A DNA stretch of 64,000 bases from contig NZ_AUGW01000007.1 of NCBI RefSeq assembly GCF_000422865.1, positions 1 through 64,000 of the forward strand, given 5' to 3'. This document shows, in pieces, positions 17,287 to 62,357 of this stretch (position 1 is its first letter; the number at the start of each line of letters is the position of its first letter). Position numbers and translations under genes: made by a program. Under the pieces are notes generated by a model. The model saw only the letters and a program-made list of their open reading frames with translations, had not been told where the DNA came from and made no database searches. Source of the stretch: Oceanospirillum maris DSM 6286. Lineage in GTDB: Bacteria > Pseudomonadota > Gammaproteobacteria > Pseudomonadales > Halomonadaceae.

Positions 17287-17529
17287 ACAGCCTAATATCA
17301 TAGAGAAAAGCCGCTCATTATGCAGCTCTAAACACCTTAATCGATGCCTCCATTCACTTAAAGAAACAATAAAAAAGCCATGTAAATTTGCTTTTTGTCG
17401 GCTTTTCCGCTAAATAAGCAATGCTTTCAAAAACGAGACAGATTATGTCCGTTGCTGAGGGTGCCAATGATGGACTATTTATCGGCGGGTATCCCCCAGG
17501 CCACCAATAACACAATATGGGGCAGTCGT

Positions 17530-17967
17530 ATGCCAGACAATGCAAATAACAACGAAGAGCTGAAACCATTTACTCCTTACCAAACAAAAGATGGTGAGGA
17601 TTATATGAGTGGTGATCAGCTTGAGCATTTCCGCCAGATTCTCCTGAAGTGGAAACAAGAGTTGATGGAAGAGGTTGACCGTACCGTTCAACATCTTCAA
17701 GAAGACGCGAACAACTTTGCTGACCCTGCTGACCGTGCCACTCAGGAAGAAGAATTCAGCCTAGAGCTGCGTACTCGTGATCGCGAGCGCAAGCTGATCA
17801 AAAAGATCAATGAAGCCTTGAACGATATTGATGAAGGTGATTACGGTTACTGTGAATCTTGCGGTATCGAAATCGGCATCCGCCGTTTGGAAGCTCGTCC
17901 TACAGCAACCTTATGTGTCGATTGCAAAACCTTAGCAGAAATCAAAGAACGCCAAATTGGCGGCTAA
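17530..17967 (+). CDS. dksA: RNA polymerase-binding transcription factor DksA
   Basis: Binds the RNA polymerase secondary channel and, with ppGpp, adjusts rRNA and amino-acid promoter activity. The coiled-coil tip DPADRATQEEEF has both key aspartates. The zinc finger has four cysteines (CESC ... CVDC). The start MPDNANNNEELKPF gives 145 aa, matching Pseudomonas DksA (~148). An in-frame extension of 45 codons has no family resemblance and is rejected. A strong terminator follows. Confidence 0.95.
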   Translation: MPDNANNNEELKPFTPYQTKDGEDYMSGDQLEHFRQILLKWKQELMEEVDRTVQHLQEDANNFADPADRATQEEEFSLELRTRDRERKLIKKINEALNDIDEGDYGYCESCGIEIGIRRLEARPTATLCVDCKTLAEIKERQIGG

Positions 17968-18080: not shown

Positions 18081-18974
18081 ATGTCTCTAATACCGTACGT
18101 TGGCCGCTTTGCGCCAACCCCTTCAGGCCCATTGCACTTTGGTTCTTTAGTGGCCGCACTTGCCAGCTATCTTGATGCGAAGTCTCACCAAGGCCAATGG
18201 TTAATGCGTATTGAAGATATCGACCCTCCTAGAGAACAAGCCGGCGCAACACAGGCTATTCTACAGGTTCTTGAGGCGTTCGAGTTATTTTGGGATGGCA
18301 CAGTGATGTATCAAAGCCAGCAAGAGGAACGTTACCAAGCCTGCGTGGATCATCTACTCAAAGAGGGTCTTGCCTATCCCTGCCAGTGCAGCCGGAAACA
18401 GCTTAAAGGCCACACTGTATATCCAAACAGTTGCCGTAAAAACCTGCCAGCACTAGGGGCAGAATGCTCAATACGCTTAAAAACCGAAGGCACATTTGTT
18501 ATTAAAGATCGAATCCAAGGGCTTTGCCAATGGCCGATGGATCAAGTGGGAGATTTTATTATTCAGCGCCGGGATAAGCTCTTTGCCTATCAGTTAGCCG
18601 TGGTACTGGACGATAATCAACAAGGCATCAATCAGGTCGTGCGAGGATACGATATATTAGAGAGCACTCCGCGCCAGCTACAATTAATGCAGCACCTTGG
18701 ATTAACACCCCCAACCTATGCCCATATTCCCGTTATCGTGCAAGCTAATGGACAAAAGCTCAGCAAACAGAATTTAGCACCGGCTATTAACAGCCATCAA
18801 AAGCAGTCTTACTTGATAAAAGCTTTAGCCGCTTTGCAGCTGTTTCCCGATCACTCGGTACAGGCCAGTGGTTACTCTGATATTCTGCGCTGGGCGATCG
18901 CTCACTGGTCTCCAGACCCTTTGTCGAACAAGCAGCAGATACCAGAAGCTGATATTGTCGTACCGTCCATTTAA
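18081..18974 (+). CDS. gluQ: Glutamyl-Q tRNA(Asp) synthetase
   Basis: Truncated GluRS paralogue that attaches glutamate to queuosine in tRNA-Asp. The HIGH-like motif is in APTPSGPLHFGS and the KMSKS-like motif is KLSKQN. Zinc ligands occur in PCQCSRKQL and the downstream SCRKN, and the anticodon-binding domain is missing as in all GluQ (297 aa). It follows dksA, a common arrangement. Confidence 0.94.
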   Translation: MSLIPYVGRFAPTPSGPLHFGSLVAALASYLDAKSHQGQWLMRIEDIDPPREQAGATQAILQVLEAFELFWDGTVMYQSQQEERYQACVDHLLKEGLAYPCQCSRKQLKGHTVYPNSCRKNLPALGAECSIRLKTEGTFVIKDRIQGLCQWPMDQVGDFIIQRRDKLFAYQLAVVLDDNQQGINQVVRGYDILESTPRQLQLMQHLGLTPPTYAHIPVIVQANGQKLSKQNLAPAINSHQKQSYLIKALAALQLFPDHSVQASGYSDILRWAIAHWSPDPLSNKQQIPEADIVVPSI

Positions 18975-18999: not shown

Positions 19000-19176
19000 A
19001 TGTATATGTACCGACTGATATTGTTCTTAGTGTTTGCCGGTTACCTGTTTTCTCCTGTTTTGATGGATTGGTGGGGGGACAGCAACGGCAGCTGGTATCG
19101 CCCATTCTTAATTTGGGCCGCTCTGATTGGGATTTCAATCTGGTTAGAACAGAAGAGAAAACTCGATGAACTTTAG
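19000..19176 (+). CDS. Small membrane protein overlapping cbrA (PA4724.1-like)
   Basis: A 58-residue protein with two hydrophobic segments, about residues 5-20 (LILFLVFAGYLFSPVL) and 33-47 (FLIWAALIGISIWLE), separated by MDWWGDSNGSW. It ends KRKLDEL. AAAGAG lies 9 bp before the ATG. Its last 11 bases overlap the cbrA start, so it should be translated just before the kinase. A small gene occupies the same place in Pseudomonas; function is unknown, and a role in CbrA folding or sensing is a guess. Confidence 0.75.
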   Translation: MYMYRLILFLVFAGYLFSPVLMDWWGDSNGSWYRPFLIWAALIGISIWLEQKRKLDEL

Positions 19177-22132
19177 TTTTAGTCTGGGACATATTTTTGC
19201 CATTGGCGTAGGCTATTTGCTGCTTCTGTTTACTGCGGCTTACGCAACAGAGCGGCGCTGGTTACCGCGCAAGCTTACACGTCACCCCCTCGTCTATGTA
19301 TTATCCATCGGAGTGTATGCCAGTGCTTGGGCGGTTTATGGCTCGGTAGGCTTAGCGAATCAATACGGCTACGGTTTTCTTTCCTATTATTTAGGCATCG
19401 CGGGAGCCTTTGTTTTATCCCCAGTGCTTTTAGTGCCTATTCTGCGTATTACTCGTACTTATCAATTATCATCATTGGCGGATCTACTTGCTTTCCGCTT
19501 CCGAAGCCGCTGGATTGGTAGTCTAGTCACTATCTTTATGTTAATGGGGGCAATGCCCTTATTAGCCCTACAGATCCAAGCCGTAGCGGACTCTATTTAT
19601 ATTCTAACCAATGAAGCCTCGCCCCATACTTTAGCCCTAGCATTTTGTATGGTGATGACGATGTTTGCCATTCTCTTTGGGGCGCGCCACACCTCGCTTC
19701 GAGAAAAACATGAAAGCCTTGTGGTTGCTATCGCCTTTGAATCGATTATCAAACTAGTCATTATGCTGGTAATTGGCGGTTATGCTTTATTTGAAGTATT
19801 TGGTGGCTTTCAAGGCTTGGATATTTGGCTAACGGCTCATTCGGATCAGTTGCAAGCCTTGCAGCAACCGTTAGAAGCAGGCCAGTGGCGCACGATGTTA
19901 CTGCTGTTTTTTGCCGCGGCTATTGCCATGCCTCATATGTTTCATATTATTTTCACCGAGAACCAATCCACCGATGTGCTGTTCCGCGCCAGCTGGGCGG
20001 TTCCTCTTTATCTATTACTACTCAGCTTGCCTGTGCCACTTATCCTTTGGGCCGGTATGGCCGAGGGCAATCCCTTAAAGCCAGAATACATGGTGCTTGG
20101 CATCGGTATTGATGCGACCAATGGCTGGCTCGGTATCTTGGCCTTTATTGCCGGCCTTTCTGCGGCCAGTGGCACGATTATTTTAGTAACACTGGCCTTA
20201 GCGGCTATGACCCTAAATCATTTAGTGTTGCCGGTTTATCAACCCGGCGCTAAGTTTGATATCTACAATTGGTTGTTATGGTTTCGCCGTCTGCTCATCG
20301 GCACAATTATTTTATCGGCCTACCTGTTTTACCGAATACTTGGGGTCAAGCATGACTTGGCCAGTCTCGGGCTCACTTCCTTTGTGGGTATTTTGCAGTT
20401 CTTACCGGGGATTCTTGCGGTGCTCTATTGGCCTACCGCCAATCGGATCGGCTTAGTTGCCGGTTTGTGCTCTGGTATCGGCATCTGGATTTTTGGGCAA
20501 GTAGTGCCCCTTATTTATAATCTTGAGCAAGTCACACTTCCTGCGACCAACCTGGTCTTTCATTCCGGCCATGATGGTTGGTATGAAGTTGCTCTTGCCT
20601 CTATTACCTTGAATATTGTGGTATTTATTTTTACCTCTCTGTTTTTGCAGCCCAGCGAGGAAGAGAAAGCCGGTGCCAATGCATGCTCTGTCGACGCCTT
20701 GTCACGCCCCCAGCGTTTACAGCTTAATGCCCGTACCTGTCAGGATTTTATCGGCTTCTTGGCTGTTCCTTTGGGAAAAATAACCGCTGCCAGAGAGGTC
20801 AATACTGCTCTACGTGATCTCCAATTAAGCCCCGACGATGGCCGCCCCTACGCATTAAGACGATTAAGAGATCGGATTCAAGCTAATCTATCAGGCCTAA
20901 TGGGGCCTGCGATCGCTCAGGAGATAGTAGATCAATACCTTCCTTATCAAGCTAACGCCAATAGCCATAGCTCAGAAGATATTCATTTTGTTGAAACCCG
21001 TTTAGAAAACTATCGCTACCAACTCACAGGTCTTGCAAAGGAACTAGACAGCCTGCGCCGCTACCATCGTCAAACCCTACAATATCTACCTATTGGTGTC
21101 TGTTCCTTAGGCGCCGACTTTGAAATTCTAATGTGGAACAATGCCATGGCAGAATTAACAGGGATTCCTATGGATCAAGTTGTTGGTTCTCGGTTTGACA
21201 GCTTGCCAGCGCCTTGGCAAAGCTTATTGGGAGAGTTCGCCCAGAGCCAAGCTCCCCATCTGTTTCAAAAAGTAGGACAAGGTCACGGGCAAGCACGCTG
21301 GTTTTCGCTCCATAAGGCCCATATTGAAGAGCCCCTATCCCATATGGGAGGCTCCGTCATTCTGCTAGAAGACCACACCGAGACCCAACAGCTGGAAGAA
21401 GAGCTAGTACACAGCGAACGCTTAGCCAGCGTAGGCCGCTTGGCGGCGGGAGTAGCTCACGAGATAGGCAACCCGATAACCGGTATCTCATCGCTGGTGC
21501 AGAACCTTAAATATGAAACAGACAATCCAGAAGTGATTACAGAAACAGCTGACCAGATTCTTCAGCTGACCAAACGGGTAACACGTATTGTGCACTCTTT
21601 AGTCAGCTTCTCCCATGCGGGCCGACATTCTAGTCAAGCCGCCCAAGAACCTCTGCTTATCACCCATGCGGTAGATGAAGCTGCCAGCCTTATCTCTTTG
21701 AGTTCAAAGGGAAAAGATATCGAATTCATCAACAATTGCCCAAAAGACCTAAAAGTTACCGGTGATATACAAAAGCTCATTCAGGTCTTCGTTAACCTAT
21801 TGGGTAACGCAAGAGATGCCTCAGATGCAGGTGATAGTGTTACTATAACTGCTACCATTCAGGACAATGCAGCCCAGGTAACCGTTACCGATAACGGCTG
21901 CGGTATTCCTGAAGAACAGTTAGAGCATATTTTTGAGCCCTTCTTCACCACAAAAGATCCGGGAGAAGGGACCGGTCTTGGCTTGGCTCTGGTTTATAGC
22001 ATTATCGAAGAACACTATGGCCATATTCAGTTCATTAGCCCAGCAGATCGGACGCAAGGTAGAGGGACTCAGGTAAAAATCACCTTGCCTCTTCACCATG
22101 CTGAAGCCAAAAGCGAATCCGCGTGGAAGTAA
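19166..22132 (+). CDS. cbrA: Transporter-fused sensor histidine kinase CbrA
   Basis: A 988-residue membrane kinase. Residues ~1-490 form a sodium/solute-symporter-like (SLC5) domain with about 13 helices. A STAC-like linker and a PAS region (~640-740, [20 protein letters not shown]) follow. The HisKA domain has phospho-acceptor H765 in [11 protein letters not shown], and the HATPase has the N box near N881 ([10 protein letters not shown]), DNGCGIPEE and [10 protein letters not shown]. Order, length and neighbours match Pseudomonas CbrA (about 983 aa), which governs carbon-nitrogen balance through CbrB. It nearly abuts cbrB. Confidence 0.93.
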
Positions 22133-22134
22133 TA

Positions 22135-23607
22135 ATGAGTAAGATTCTAGTAGTTGAAGACGAAGACATCATCCGCTCCGCCCTTAAAAGGCTGCTAGAG
22201 CGACACCGTTTTGAAGTGAGCGAAGCTGCATCTGTGGATGAAGCGTTAAGCCATCTAAAAAACACGCGCTTTGATTTGGTTATCTCTGACCTGCGCCTCC
22301 CTAAGGCACCGGGCACAGACCTTATCGAGAAAACAAAAGGTACGCCGGTACTGATTATGACCAGCTACGCCAGCTTGCGCTCCGCTGTTGATGCCATGAA
22401 GCTTGGCGCAGTGGATTATATCGCTAAACCGTTTGATCATGAGGAGATGCTGGAAACCGTCAATCGCATCTTGGCTAAACAACAAGCACAGCAACCTCTC
22501 AGTGAAATTCCGCCGGTAGAAGATGACTTAAGCGAAGCGGGCACCATGGGTATGATTGGTCATTGCGCCCCCATGCAGATGGTTTATCAGCGCATTCGTA
22601 AAGTAGCCCCCACCCACGCCACCGTTTTAATACAAGGCGAATCAGGTACCGGTAAAGAACTGATCGCTCGGGCGATTCATAATTACAGTCGTCGTAAAGC
22701 CGCACCCATGATCTCAGTAAACTGCGCTGCAATTCCTGAAACACTGATTGAATCTGAACTATTTGGCTATGAAAAAGGCGCATTTACCGGTGCAAACACC
22801 AATCGCAGCGGTTTAGTCGAAGCCGCTGACGGCGGTACTTTATTTCTGGACGAAATCGGTGAACTACCTTTAGAGGCTCAAGCGCGCTTACTGCGAGTGT
22901 TGCAGGAAGGTGAAATTCGCCGAATCGGCTCGGTACAGTCGAAAAAGGTCGATGTTCGGCTTGTTGCGGCGACCCACCGTAATTTGAAGAAACTATCTAG
23001 CGAAGGCGAATTCCGTCTCGATCTTTACTACCGCCTTAATGTCATGGAGATAGCACTACCAGCATTAAGAGAACGCGGGGATGATATTTTAGAAATTGCT
23101 GATTACCTACTAAGCCTCGCCTGTGAACGCATGGGCCGCCCGAATCTTCGTCTAAGCAAACATGCCACCGATGCTATCACTCAACACGACTGGCCCGGTA
23201 ACGTGCGAGAGCTTGAAAATGCAATAGAACGCGGCGTTATTCTTGCGGAAGGCAACCTGATACATACTGATGACATGGGGCTTGTCGTTGAACGTTCCGC
23301 AGGTCATCGCCCGATGCAATCAACCCAATCACAGTCCACACGGCCCTCAGTACAGTCCGCCTTACCATCTGTCAGCATGAGCATGCCTTCCTCGTCTCAG
23401 AGGTCCCCTGCACGTAATGATGGCACCAAAGCTCCTGATGACCTTTCATTAGAAGATTATTTCCAGCACTTTGTACTAGAACACCAAGAGCAGATGAGCG
23501 AAACCGAGTTAGCTCAGAGACTAGGGATCAGCCGAAAATGCCTTTGGGAGCGCCGACAACGCCTTGGCATTCCACGCCGAAAAGCCTCTAGTAAGAAGAG
23601 CGGGTAA
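22135..23607 (+). CDS. cbrB: Sigma-54-dependent response regulator CbrB (NtrC family)
   Basis: Receiver domain with phospho-acceptor D52 ([10 protein letters not shown]). AAA+ domain with Walker A GESGTGKE (168-175) and the sigma-54 contact loop GAFTGA (215-220). A low-complexity Ser/Gln/Pro linker (about 395-430) leads to a Fis-type HTH ([20 protein letters not shown]). The start at 22135 ([10 protein letters not shown]) places it 2 bp after the cbrA stop; the ATG 12 bp earlier is less likely. A sigma-54 promoter lies 207 bp downstream, its probable main target. Confidence 0.94.
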
Positions 23608-23687: not shown

Positions 23688-23739
23688 GTGTTACCGTAAC
23701 ACACAAGCAAGCATTCAAAAGATGGTTTCATCGGTAACA
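23688..23739. promoter_or_regulatory. Candidate CbrB upstream activator sites
   Basis: GTGTTACCGTAACAC (23688-23702) is a perfect 7-1-7 inverted repeat, and a further half-site GTAACA lies at 23734-23739. Another GTAAC occurs at 23780. They are 100-150 bp before the predicted RNA start, the usual distance for enhancers of NtrC-type activators. I recall GTTAC/GTAAC-type repeats as CbrB sites in Pseudomonas; this needs checking. Confidence 0.6.
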
Positions 23740-23813: not shown

Positions 23814-23829
23814 TGGCACACCAAGTGCA
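23814..23829 (+). promoter_or_regulatory. Sigma-54 promoter of the CrcZ-like RNA
   Basis: TGGCACACCAAGTGCA has the invariant GG (23815-23816) and GC (23827-23828) with the required 10-bp spacing, and 15 of 16 bases fit TGGCACRNNNNTTGCW. The predicted transcription start is near 23840. No open reading frame with a ribosome-binding site follows. Confidence 0.85.
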
Positions 23830-23839
23830 ATCTATACGA

Positions 23840-24345
23840 GTAAGAACAACAAGAACGACGGTTAACTTATAGCCAATACAACAAAAATAATAATCGGCAC
23901 TTTTTGCAGCGCTCAAATAATAAAAACAGAAATCTGAGCGGTGGAATCCTGGCACAACCGGAAACAATAACAACAAACATCCGGAACGAGTCAAACCTAG
24001 AACAACAATAATAAGCTAGGTAAAGAAGTTAACCACAGCGCACTCATGTATCTCAGACCCGCAACAACAATAACAAAGCGGCGTTTTAAGATACCGGCTT
24101 GAATAATAAAAATAACACTCGAGCCGCGAAAAAATACTTGGATTAATTGTTTTGAATACGAGGCGGTCCAAACTAGAAGTAGTGATACTTCGAATTGGAA
24201 AACAAAAATAATAAGGCATCAGTCACCAAGGTTTGTCACCGATAGACTGTCATTACGTATTCAGAGCGATTTACCAACATCTGACATACCGTTCGCAAGG
24301 AAGCGGACCGTTCCGGCGGAGCCAACTTGGCTCCGCTTTTATTTT
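23840..24345 (+). ncRNA. crcZ: CrcZ-like Hfq/Crc-sequestering small RNA
   Basis: A predicted ~505-nt RNA between cbrB and pcnB, the crcZ position in Pseudomonas. It carries eight A-rich tracts containing AANAANAA: 23842-23856, 23878-23894, 23915-23928, 23962-23977, 24001-24014 (AACAACAATAATAA), 24063-24077, 24102-24115 and 24199-24214. Such tracts bind the distal face of Hfq together with Crc. Several lie between short inverted repeats: CGCTCA/TGAGCG (23910/23935), CCGG/CCGG (23958/23981), CCTAG/CTAGG (23996/24016), CCGC/GCGG (24059/24078) and CGGCT/AGCCG (24095/24122). Limits come from a sigma-54 promoter and a terminator. No coding potential is seen. The role as decoy is inferred from CrcZ; Crc and Hfq are not in the window. 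Confidence 0.85.
24316..24345 (+). terminator. Terminator of the CrcZ-like RNA
   Basis: GCGGAGCC-AACTT-GGCTCCGC stem (8 bp, all paired) followed by TTTTATTTTT. A possible pcnB promoter, TTGGCT (24327-24332) and TACACT (24351-24356) with an 18-bp spacer, overlaps it. Confidence 0.9.
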
Positions 24346-24389: not shown

Positions 24390-25781
24390 ATGCTAAAAGG
24401 AATTCCCTCGTTTCTAAAGCGTCCCGGAGATTCAATTCGGCAGCTGCTAAAATCAGAGCGCCCACAGCAATCCATTAAACCGGAATTGCACATCGTTTCC
24501 CGTGACGAACATCCCATGAGCCGCACCGGCATTTCAGAAAGCGCGTTGAAAGTGCTTTATCGCCTGAAGAAAGCAAATTACGATGCTTTTCTTGTGGGTG
24601 GCTGTGTCCGTGATGCGCTTTTAGACCTGCACCCAAAAGACTTTGACGTTGCCACCAATGCCACGCCTGAACAGGTTAATAGCCTGTTTCATAACGCGCG
24701 CATTATTGGTCGTCGTTTTCGTATTGTGCATGTGCGTTATGGCCGTGAAACTATCGAGGTCACGACATTCCGTGCCCCACCTGCAAACAACACAGCAAAG
24801 TCTCATGCCTCTCAGACCGATCAAGGGCTGTTAGTGCGCGATAATGTCTACGGAACGATTGAAGAGGATGCCATACGTCGTGATTTCACGATTAATGCTC
24901 TCTATTACAATATCCGAGACTTCTCGATCTACGACTACGCTGGCGGCATCGATGATATGGATCATAGGCTTATTCGCATGATCGGTGACCCTGAAACACG
25001 CTACAGAGAAGATCCTGTACGCATGCTTCGGGCTATTCGTTTTGCGGCTAAACTTGATTTTGATATTGAGTCCGCAACGGAGGCACCTATTCGTGCTTCC
25101 GCGAATCTATTACGCCAAATTCCTGCGGCACGCCTATTTGAAGAAGTGTTAAAACTCTTCTTATCCGGTCAAGGTGAAGAAACGTTCAATTTGCTGCGGG
25201 AATACCATTTATTTGGCCAACTGTTCCCTTACAGCGAAGATGCGTTACGGGAATCACCGGAGCGTGAAGCCTTTATTCTTCAAGCGCTTTACAATACGGA
25301 TAAACGTATCGCGGAAAACAAACCTGTTACGCCCGCATTTTTGTTCGCCGCCTTACTCTGGCCCGTCGTACAGAAAGCCTTTGCTGAACTCATTCGCTCT
25401 GGTATTCCTCCGGTTCCAGCAATGCAGCAAGCAGGGCAACAAGCCACCGCCGCTCAAGTTGACTTTACCTCGATTCCAAAACGATTCAGCCAACCCATGC
25501 GTGAGATTTGGGAATTTCAGCTACGCTTAGAACGCCGACAAGGTAAACGTGCGTATCTAACCGCCGAACATCCTCGATTCCGTGCCGCCTATGATTTCTT
25601 AGTATTACGTAGTGAAACCGGTGAAAACGTAGGGGAATTGGCTCAATGGTGGACAAACTTCCAAGAGAGTGACAATCACTCCCGTCGAAATCTTGTGATG
25701 AACAGCGAGCAACATGAAACACCGGTTCCTCGCAAACGTCGGCGGCGTAATTACAATAGTTCTCGAAAGGCCAAGGAATGA
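24390..25781 (+). CDS. pcnB: Poly(A) polymerase I
   Basis: Adds poly(A) tails to RNA 3' ends and so promotes decay, including of small RNAs. The nucleotidyltransferase core has GGCVRDALLDLHPKDFDVATNA (catalytic DxD within it), and the neck region has EEDAIRRDFTINALYYN. The basic C-terminus RKRRRRNYNSSRKAKE is typical of PcnB and absent from CCA-adding enzymes. It has 463 residues. It overlaps folK by 4 bp. Confidence 0.95.
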   Translation: MLKGIPSFLKRPGDSIRQLLKSERPQQSIKPELHIVSRDEHPMSRTGISESALKVLYRLKKANYDAFLVGGCVRDALLDLHPKDFDVATNATPEQVNSLFHNARIIGRRFRIVHVRYGRETIEVTTFRAPPANNTAKSHASQTDQGLLVRDNVYGTIEEDAIRRDFTINALYYNIRDFSIYDYAGGIDDMDHRLIRMIGDPETRYREDPVRMLRAIRFAAKLDFDIESATEAPIRASANLLRQIPAARLFEEVLKLFLSGQGEETFNLLREYHLFGQLFPYSEDALRESPEREAFILQALYNTDKRIAENKPVTPAFLFAALLWPVVQKAFAELIRSGIPPVPAMQQAGQQATAAQVDFTSIPKRFSQPMREIWEFQLRLERRQGKRAYLTAEHPRFRAAYDFLVLRSETGENVGELAQWWTNFQESDNHSRRNLVMNSEQHETPVPRKRRRRNYNSSRKAKE

Positions 25782-32313: not shown

Positions 32314-32583
32314 TTAGCGACGTAGACCTAGGCTCTTGATCAGATCACTGTAACGACCTAGATCTTTTTTCTTCAGGTAATCCAGCAGCTTACGACGCTG
32401 GTTAACCATGCGAATCAGACCACGACGTGAATGGTGATCTTGTTTGTTCGCTTTAAAGTGTTCTTGCAGACCGTTGATGTTGAACGTTAGCAATGCAACT
32501 TGAACCTCAGGGGAACCTGTGTCGCCTTCGCCACGTGCGTAATCTTTAACGATTTCTGCTTTCTTTTCTGCAGATAAAGCCAT
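32314..32583 (-). CDS. rpsO: Small ribosomal subunit protein uS15
   Basis: Primary 16S rRNA-binding protein of the 30S platform. The 89-residue sequence carries the family core [20 protein letters not shown] and [30 protein letters not shown] precedes the ATG. Hairpins in its leader suggest translational autoregulation as in E. coli. Confidence 0.98.
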
Positions 32584-32622
32584 GATGCTTCTCCTAGTAA
32601 AATATGCAAATAATAGAATTCA

Positions 32623-32650
32623 GGGTAACCGTGCACATTTACAGTTATCC
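32623..32650 (-). promoter_or_regulatory. rpsO leader hairpin, candidate S15 autoregulatory element
   Basis: On the mRNA strand GGATAACTGT pairs with ACGGTTACCC (9 of 10 positions) around an 8-nt loop, ending about 40 nt before the rpsO ATG. A second hairpin, GATCTTTC/GAGAGATC, lies just upstream (~32655-32676). S15 binds its own leader in E. coli; no pseudoknot could be confirmed by eye. Confidence 0.4.
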
Positions 32651-32724
32651 TAACGATCTCTCTGGTAGAAAGATCCTATACAAATAAATAGAGGAATCGT
32701 TCGCCTGCTGTTTCAAAGGCAGGA

Positions 32725-38700: not shown

Positions 38701-38777
<77 letters not shown>

Positions 38778-38877: not shown

Positions 38878-38964
38878 TGGTGCCGAAAGCGGGACTTGAA
38901 CCCGCACGACCATAAGGCCACCACCCCCTCAAGATGGCGTGTCTACCAATTCCACCACTTCGGC
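38878..38964 (-). tRNA. tRNA-Leu (GAG)
   Basis: An 87-nt class II tRNA with a long variable arm. The anticodon loop TTGAGGG gives GAG. The acceptor GCCGAAG pairs with TTTCGGC (one G-U), and CCA is encoded at 38878-38880. It lies downstream of secG as in Pseudomonas. Confidence 0.95.
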
Positions 38965-61999: not shown

Positions 62000-62357
62000 G
62001 GGGGCGACATGGCTTCGACGCCGGCTACAAACCCTGAGGTGCATGTCGAGAGGGTAACGTATCTCGTAAATCCAGCGTTACAACTTTATAGTCGCAAACG
62101 ACGAAAACTACGCTCTAGCTGCTTAATGCAGCTCCCTCAGACGGAAGTTGCCTGTAACTTCTAGACGAGGTATGAGCCCGCGAAACAGGCTCGCAGCAAA
62201 GTCCGTCTCAGACCGCGCTGCTAAAACTTTAAGAGACTCGCGCTAAGCAATCCTGTTCGTTGGAGTGCTACGCGTTAAATCAAATAACGAAACTAAGCAT
62301 GTAGATCCGATGGCAGAGGGCTGGCGGACGGGGGTTCAATTCCCCCCGCCTCCACCA
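62000..62357 (+). ncRNA. ssrA: Transfer-messenger RNA (tmRNA)
   Basis: The 5' end GGGGGCG pairs with CGCCTCC before the 3' ACCA, forming the tRNA-like acceptor stem, and GGGGGTTCAATTCCCCC is the T arm. The tag frame begins GCA at 62094 and encodes ANDENYALAA, with TAA at 62124-62126. 358 nt. A foreign element is inserted at its 3' end. Confidence 0.97.

Follow-up and report, generated by a model that had tools for sequence, protein, structure and literature searches.

The 782-nt gap between cbrB and pcnB in Oceanospirillum maris encodes a predicted RNA of about 503 nt (23840-24343, + strand) that is very probably a CrcZ-like decoy of Hfq, or of Hfq and Crc, driven by CbrB and sigma-54. All positions refer to the window, the whole stretch of 64,000 nt that was analysed. 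The ends of the RNA are predicted from promoter spacing, a terminator and conservation.

We propose the following mechanism. On a poor carbon source, CbrB at the upstream TGTTAC and GTAACA subsites would open a sigma-54 promoter. The promoter would yield an RNA of about 500 nt with eight A-rich tracts that are predicted to be mostly single-stranded, several of them in hairpin loops. The tracts could bind the distal face of Hfq hexamers, whether or not Crc takes part, and this capture would free catabolic mRNAs from Hfq-Crc repression. If this is true, the RNA releases a brake on second-choice carbon sources. The locus, the promoter, the CbrB sites, the tracts, the covarying hairpins and their conservation, as well as the presence of Crc, Hfq and RpoN, are read directly from the sequence. 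By analogy with Pseudomonas, CbrB would activate transcription, and the RNA would bind and titrate Hfq and so relieve repression.

The locus and its predicted transcript

The host is an Oceanospirillum (Oceanospirillaceae, Oceanospirillales in the NCBI taxonomy), so that the RNA indeed occurs outside the pseudomonads, as a preliminary description of this DNA had claimed. Its 3.7 Mb genome encodes Hfq, RpoN and Crc. The search tool used here groups genomes into a wider order that also takes in a CrcZ-bearing genome (G056).

The genes around the RNA all lie on the + strand. DksA (17395-17967; NCBIfam TIGR02420, above cut-off) provides context, and a tRNA glutamyl-Q synthetase, GluQ (18081-18974; NF004314 and TIGR03838, above cut-off), precedes CbrA. 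CbrA (19166-22132) combines a membrane part, presumably of the SLC5 type, with a histidine kinase (HisKA and HATPase_c domains). It is 83-90% identical to CbrA of five named Oceanospirillum species and 57% identical to that of G056, whose cbrB-pcnB gap contains an Rfam-grade CrcZ. CbrB (22123-23607, probable ATG at 22135) is a sigma-54 response regulator with Response_reg and Sigma54_activat domains and intact receiver hallmarks. The poly(A) polymerase PcnB (24390-25781; TIGR01942, above cut-off) follows. The domain and family matches on both flanking genes confirm the position between cbrB and pcnB given earlier. Elsewhere in the window, Rfam models match a ribosomal S15 leader (32527-32652, - strand), a tmRNA (62000-62357, + strand) and two tRNAs (38704-38777 and 38881-38964, - strand).

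From 5′ to 3′, the gap (cbrB stop at 23607, pcnB start at 24390) contains CbrB-type subsites, a sigma-54 promoter, eight AANAANAA tracts and an intrinsic terminator, all on the + strand. The promoter (TGGCAC-N6-TGCA, 23814-23829) shows the GG-N10-GC spacing; its position and this spacing place the transcription start at about 23840. CbrB subsite F, TGTTAC, lies at -125 from the -24 element (23689-23694), following the subsite definition in the available part of PMC6296734. Subsite R, GTAACA, is found at -118 (23696-23701) and at -80 (23734-23739), the latter at the same position in family loci with cbrB. No NtrC-type sites were found upstream of the RNA with the pattern used. The strong terminator, a 10-bp GC-rich hairpin with a T-run (24315-24343), ends the RNA at about 24343, some 47 nt ahead of the pcnB start. 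Inside the RNA, the longest start-codon frames span 37 aa on the + strand and 67 aa on the - strand; across six Oceanospirillum species no frame is constant in position and length, some being common to two or three. The sigma-54 promoter, the terminator and the non-coding nature of the RNA had all been proposed in the preliminary description, and each is borne out.

The gap could instead serve pcnB, as its 5′ leader or as a regulatory region, and not give rise to a free RNA; it does lie upstream of pcnB in 36 family loci, even in those without cbrAB. We nevertheless consider this very unlikely, given a strong terminator so close to the pcnB start and CA tracts that begin at the predicted 5′ end of the sigma-54 transcript. 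CrcZ of Pseudomonas is likewise a free RNA.

The eight tracts are separate, as had been noted earlier. Tract 1 (23842-23855) lies at the predicted 5′ end, a position that carries a tract in 33 of 36 family loci. Tracts 2 (23880-23893) and 4 (23963-23976) are sequence matches, and tracts 3 (23916-23926), 5 (24001-24014), 6 (24063-24076) and 7 (24102-24115) additionally fall in hairpin loops of the predicted structure. Tract 8 (24201-24214) lies inside a 3′ helix domain. Dinucleotide shuffles of the 782-nt gap contained 1.8 tracts on average and 6 at most, so that none of 2000 matched the count of eight. Elsewhere in the 64 kb, a 500-nt segment (50-nt steps, both strands) holds no more than 4.

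The tracts are predicted to be accessible. When the RNA is folded, the unpaired probability is 0.91 in tracts versus 0.39 elsewhere, and across 33 family RNAs the mean is 0.91 in tracts, 0.36 at other positions and 0.59 at other A's. In six Oceanospirillum species, the hairpins of tracts 3, 5, 6 and 7 show both-side changes in 13 of 30 pairs, a level reached in none of 500 shuffles, with the structure derived from the same alignment as was used for this covariation test. In these hairpins 92% of cells are paired, versus 27-38% when the partner is slid, and the number of pair types is not above that in shuffles (368 of 500 as high). The both-side changes and the pairing relative to the slid control make it probable that several tracts are exposed in hairpin loops maintained by compensatory change. 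They also bear on the idea that the A-rich tracts are functionless low-complexity drift in an AT-rich gap. The window's gap, at 40% GC, would suit such drift, but tract arrays persist in gaps of 52-60% GC (L054-L059), the average shuffle falls far short of the observed count, and both-side stem changes hold tracts in loops. We thus find drift hardly credible.

The 3′ helix domain

The best-conserved part of the family RNA is its 3′ end, where helices of 15 bp and 6 bp surround the last tract. Alignments and model searches delimit this domain (covariance model R1) to 24139-24289 on the + strand. By pairing analysis, the outer 15-bp helix joins the 5′ strand ATTGTTTTGAATACG (24146-24160) to a 3′ strand at 24256-24270, and the inner 6-bp helix joins 24163-24168 to 24245-24250, all on the + strand. 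Among 30 family RNAs that were chosen without the motif and aligned whole (alignment A1), 14 of the 15 positions of ATTGTTTTGAATACG are invariant, and the single variant is one T to C change in L060. In a further alignment of 33 sequences (A2), identity at this strand is partly by construction because the sequences were picked with that motif.

Over the 21 pairs of the domain, 99.1% of cells are paired, versus 32-45% when one strand is slid. The inner helix shows both-side changes at three pairs, in one sequence each, and 4 of 500 shuffles reach that level. Covariation says little about the outer helix because it mostly never varies. The domain is present in 34 family loci, namely the 33 of A2 and L060, and absent from the remaining two of the 36, L126 and L127. 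In a search of 293 genomes of the order, its covariance model matched 12 family genomes at E <1e-21 and gave one further, marginal match on another contig. No match was obtained in 21 loci of other families, of which 19 cover the stretch upstream of pcnB.

The domain is more than a holder of the last tract, since L062 and L063 keep the helix without an enclosed tract. Part of the extra length of the RNA is a new 3′ domain that forms a separate module. Perhaps it serves stability, processing or the binding of another protein. We speculate that RNase III or a protein that binds duplexes could act on a helix of 21 bp. The strand at 24146-24160 is also partly complementary to CA tracts of the AAAACAA type (tract 8, for instance) and could conceivably switch between two pairings.

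The near-constancy of ATTGTTTTGAATACG raises the question of whether the RNA binds Hfq but acts mainly by base pairing, with the invariant 5′ strand as its active part and the CA tracts merely loading Hfq. One substitution in 30 sequences, opposite a partner strand whose changes mostly preserve pairing, hints at constraint beyond the helix. However, the six to nine separated tracts exceed the expected need for Hfq loading, four of them sit in covarying hairpins, and the invariant strand is itself paired in the predicted structure. Furthermore, 19 loci of other families that cover the stretch upstream of pcnB lack the domain, and 10 of these have the promoter and then CA tracts. We therefore regard action mainly by base pairing as unlikely and retain the reading as an Hfq(-Crc) decoy.

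Spread of the RNA and loss of CbrA and CbrB

The window's family (f1) comprises 37 genomes, the window's own and G001-G036, and 36 loci have pcnB in reach (all but that of G028). A sigma-54 promoter whose -24 element begins 27-31 nt before the first tract occurs in 33 of these 36 loci (not in L061, L121 and L126), under a scoring that favoured promoter candidates with a tract at 24-36 nt. The preliminary description had named an absence of the tracts from related genomes as a refutation, and they are present: 33 folded family RNAs contain 6-9, with a median of 8. Among 19 loci of other families with pcnB in reach, 10 have a promoter and, 24-36 nt further on, a tract. From these family and other-family counts, eight tracts are a family trait, with mostly shorter arrays elsewhere. 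Both CbrB subsites, TGTTAC at -116 to -136 and GTAACA at -79 to -81, are present in every one of the 26 family loci with cbrB that were scanned, a count from which L061 was excluded for having no promoter match. Excluded from the promoter and tract counts were L043, L051, L052 and L065, which have no pcnB in the fetched stretch. L051 (G028) belongs to the window's family; cbrAB is present and the 1500 nt downstream of cbrB contain one tract.

Arrays of CA tracts that come with a promoter and CbrB sites are found again in several families. Of 58 genomes in the order as defined by the tool, the window's own among them, 38 have a CbrA match (E <= 1e-100). According to the available parts of a 2022 review and a 2018 study (PMC8871633, PMC6296734), no bacteria other than Pseudomonadaceae have CbrAB. 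Contrary to these stated limits, the present locus lies outside that family. In the open-access literature we found nothing on CrcZ in Marinobacter; for CbrA together with Oceanospirillales, the accessible text includes a metatranscriptome study with passages on cbrA/cbrB. The spread of CbrA and of the arrays beyond Pseudomonadaceae makes Hfq-Crc catabolite control a question for marine bacteria.

Within the family, CbrA is found in 21 of 37 genomes and absent in 16 (E <= 1e-100). In seven of these 16, cbrB precedes the RNA; the six of them that were viewed further upstream (not G029) have, by eye, a GluQ-like frame directly ahead of cbrB. The other nine have no cbrB at the locus, where a GluQ-like frame (eight genomes) or a DksA-like frame (L126) is seen by eye, and no CbrB elsewhere in the genome (E <= 1e-110). 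All 16 cbrA-less genomes carry an array of at least five CA tracts upstream of pcnB. The sigma-54 promoter followed by a tract is kept in 14 of them (not L121 and L126), as is the 3′ domain (not L126 and L127). In G022 (L126), with neither promoter nor 3′ domain, the RNA may be decaying. Crc is retained in all 37 family genomes and RpoN in all nine without cbrB.

The CbrB sites disappear together with cbrB. Paired subsites occur in none of the nine family loci without it (L112, L117, L120, L121, L123-L127), L123 having one TGTTAC at -67, and seven of the nine keep the sigma-54 promoter followed by a tract. This natural co-loss ties the subsites to CbrB. The k-mers shared in eight of these nine loci were A-rich or short matches only.

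All 39 loci with cbrA, from the window's genome, five named species, 32 relatives and a Moraxellaceae MAG, encode a CbrB with intact receiver hallmarks. Without cbrA, the hallmarks are altered in seven of eight loci, G015 being intact; related genomes in these counts are not independent, and the eight include two from other families in which the phospho-acceptor Asp is Glu. G038, an incomplete genome (75%) in which cbrA was not found, has an intact receiver and was set aside; with it, two of nine cbrA-less receivers are intact. Among the cbrA-less receivers (L132-L139), the phospho-acceptor Asp is replaced by Glu in G048 and G050 and by Thr in G023, and the others that changed are altered in the acidic pocket, Thr/Ser or Lys. 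CbrB receivers thus mostly seem to decay after loss of cbrA. This fits the report, in the accessible part of PMC6296734, that P. putida CbrB barely depends on phosphorylation.

The cascade appears to have been lost from the top: the kinase went first, receiver residues followed and the activator went last, while the RNA array stayed. We give roughly even chances to the broader proposal that the module centres on the decoy RNA and not on the two-component system, that its 3′ domain has a second function, and that the RNA outlived CbrA and CbrB in nine of 37 genomes with its control rewired. If the RNA outlived CbrAB, under another sigma-54 activator or in decay, Hfq-Crc catabolite control would therefore have been rewired to new inputs. 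The family's natural losses offer a way to test which step of the cascade is important and whether CbrB can act unphosphorylated.

Hfq, Crc and comparison with CrcZ

The genome encodes the proteins that a CrcZ-type decoy would engage. The best PDB match of Hfq is 1u1s, which we take to be Hfq of P. aeruginosa, and the best match of Crc is 4jg3 (E 2.8e-83), presumably a Pseudomonas Crc. In the genome sequence, crc adjoins two further ORFs that look to us like rph and pyrE. At the positions that we assume to be those of the ExoIII catalytic residues, the Crc protein carries replacements. Of 14 residues of the Hfq-Crc-RNA assembly named in the available part of PMC6422490, it keeps nine (R138, K139, R140, R141, E142, E193, R196, R229 and R230) and differs at K155, M156, F231, R233 and W255. 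Its nearest match, the replaced catalytic residues and the interface kept at these nine positions identify it as Crc and not ExoIII. NCBIfam labels this protein exodeoxyribonuclease III (TIGR00633, 186 bits, above cut-off), and a separate ExoIII is also encoded in the genome.

Candidate targets were sought at the starts of 309 genes out of 464 kb, with starts set by a home-made rule. Runs of four AAN occur in six of these genes versus 2.2 +- 1.4 in shuffles, two control stretches being without excess, and AANAANAA occurs 21 times versus 16.3 +- 3.2. Genome-wide, the CA-motif pattern shows no clear enrichment (106 versus 91 in the reversed control). The six best gene-start matches encode an enoyl-CoA hydratase, an NMT1-like protein, a histidine kinase, an HlyD-type protein, a GGDEF/EAL protein and a hydrolase; the first two of these resemble catabolic or uptake targets. 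The slight enrichment at gene starts, together with a genome-wide count without clear excess, lends weak support to the target side of the model.

The covariance search with the Rfam CrcZ model (RF01675) that had been proposed earlier turned out negative. The gap scores 15.8 bits against a gathering cut-off of 95, and nothing in the whole genome lies above the cut-off. The RNA is not within RF01675 as modelled, and we rejected identification through this model, the RNA being too diverged and the model too narrow. Among 20 loci scanned in relatives, one exceeds the cut-off and serves as a positive control: L050, of G056, reaches 306.8 bits. CbrB of this genome is 62% identical to the window's, and its RNA gap is flanked by cbrB and pcnB. 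Because the same gene order accompanies 306.8 bits there and 15.8 bits here, we view the window's RNA as the positional and architectural counterpart of CrcZ outside the Rfam model.

The RNA resembles CrcZ in its sigma-54 promoter, its CbrB subsites and its gene order, which is found in G056 and, we assume, also in Pseudomonas. As in the Rfam consensus, a CA motif lies at the (here predicted) 5′ end and CA motifs lie in loops. The CrcZ-like reading of the preliminary description is thus supported by gene order, promoter, CbrB subsites, unpaired tracts, a Pseudomonas-type Crc and Hfq, and recurrence in relatives. On most features that can be tested in sequence, the RNA would work like CrcZ.

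It differs from CrcZ of P. aeruginosa in size, the latter having 407 nt and six A-rich stretches according to the available part of PMC4063720, against about 503 nt and eight tracts here. The excess of about 100 nt claimed earlier agrees with these figures; the five tracts then given for P. aeruginosa do not. The description as an enlarged decoy holds for the number of tracts, but much of the extra length is the separate 3′ helix domain and not CA tracts. The 21-bp helix domain also distinguishes the RNA from the Rfam-grade CrcZ of G056, in which it was not found.

Two loci in two other families carry tandem units of a sigma-54 promoter and CA tracts between cbrB and pcnB. The units lie 124 and 515 nt into the gap in L073 and 514 and 1020 nt into it in L069; in L073, each appears by eye to come with a terminator and CbrB-like sites of its own. 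By their arrangement, these tandem units appear to be a local counterpart of the CrcZ/CrcY pair. CrcY and CrcX, further copies in Pseudomonas and Azotobacter, are driven by CbrB and sigma-54 and bind Hfq-Crc according to the accessible parts of PMC6296734, PMC6292655 and PMC8871633, as we propose for the RNA described here. We conclude that the latter, as judged from its sequence, is a CrcZ-type RNA that exceeds CrcZ in length, has a 3′ domain specific to its own family and occurs beyond Pseudomonadaceae, where the literature places CbrAB exclusively.
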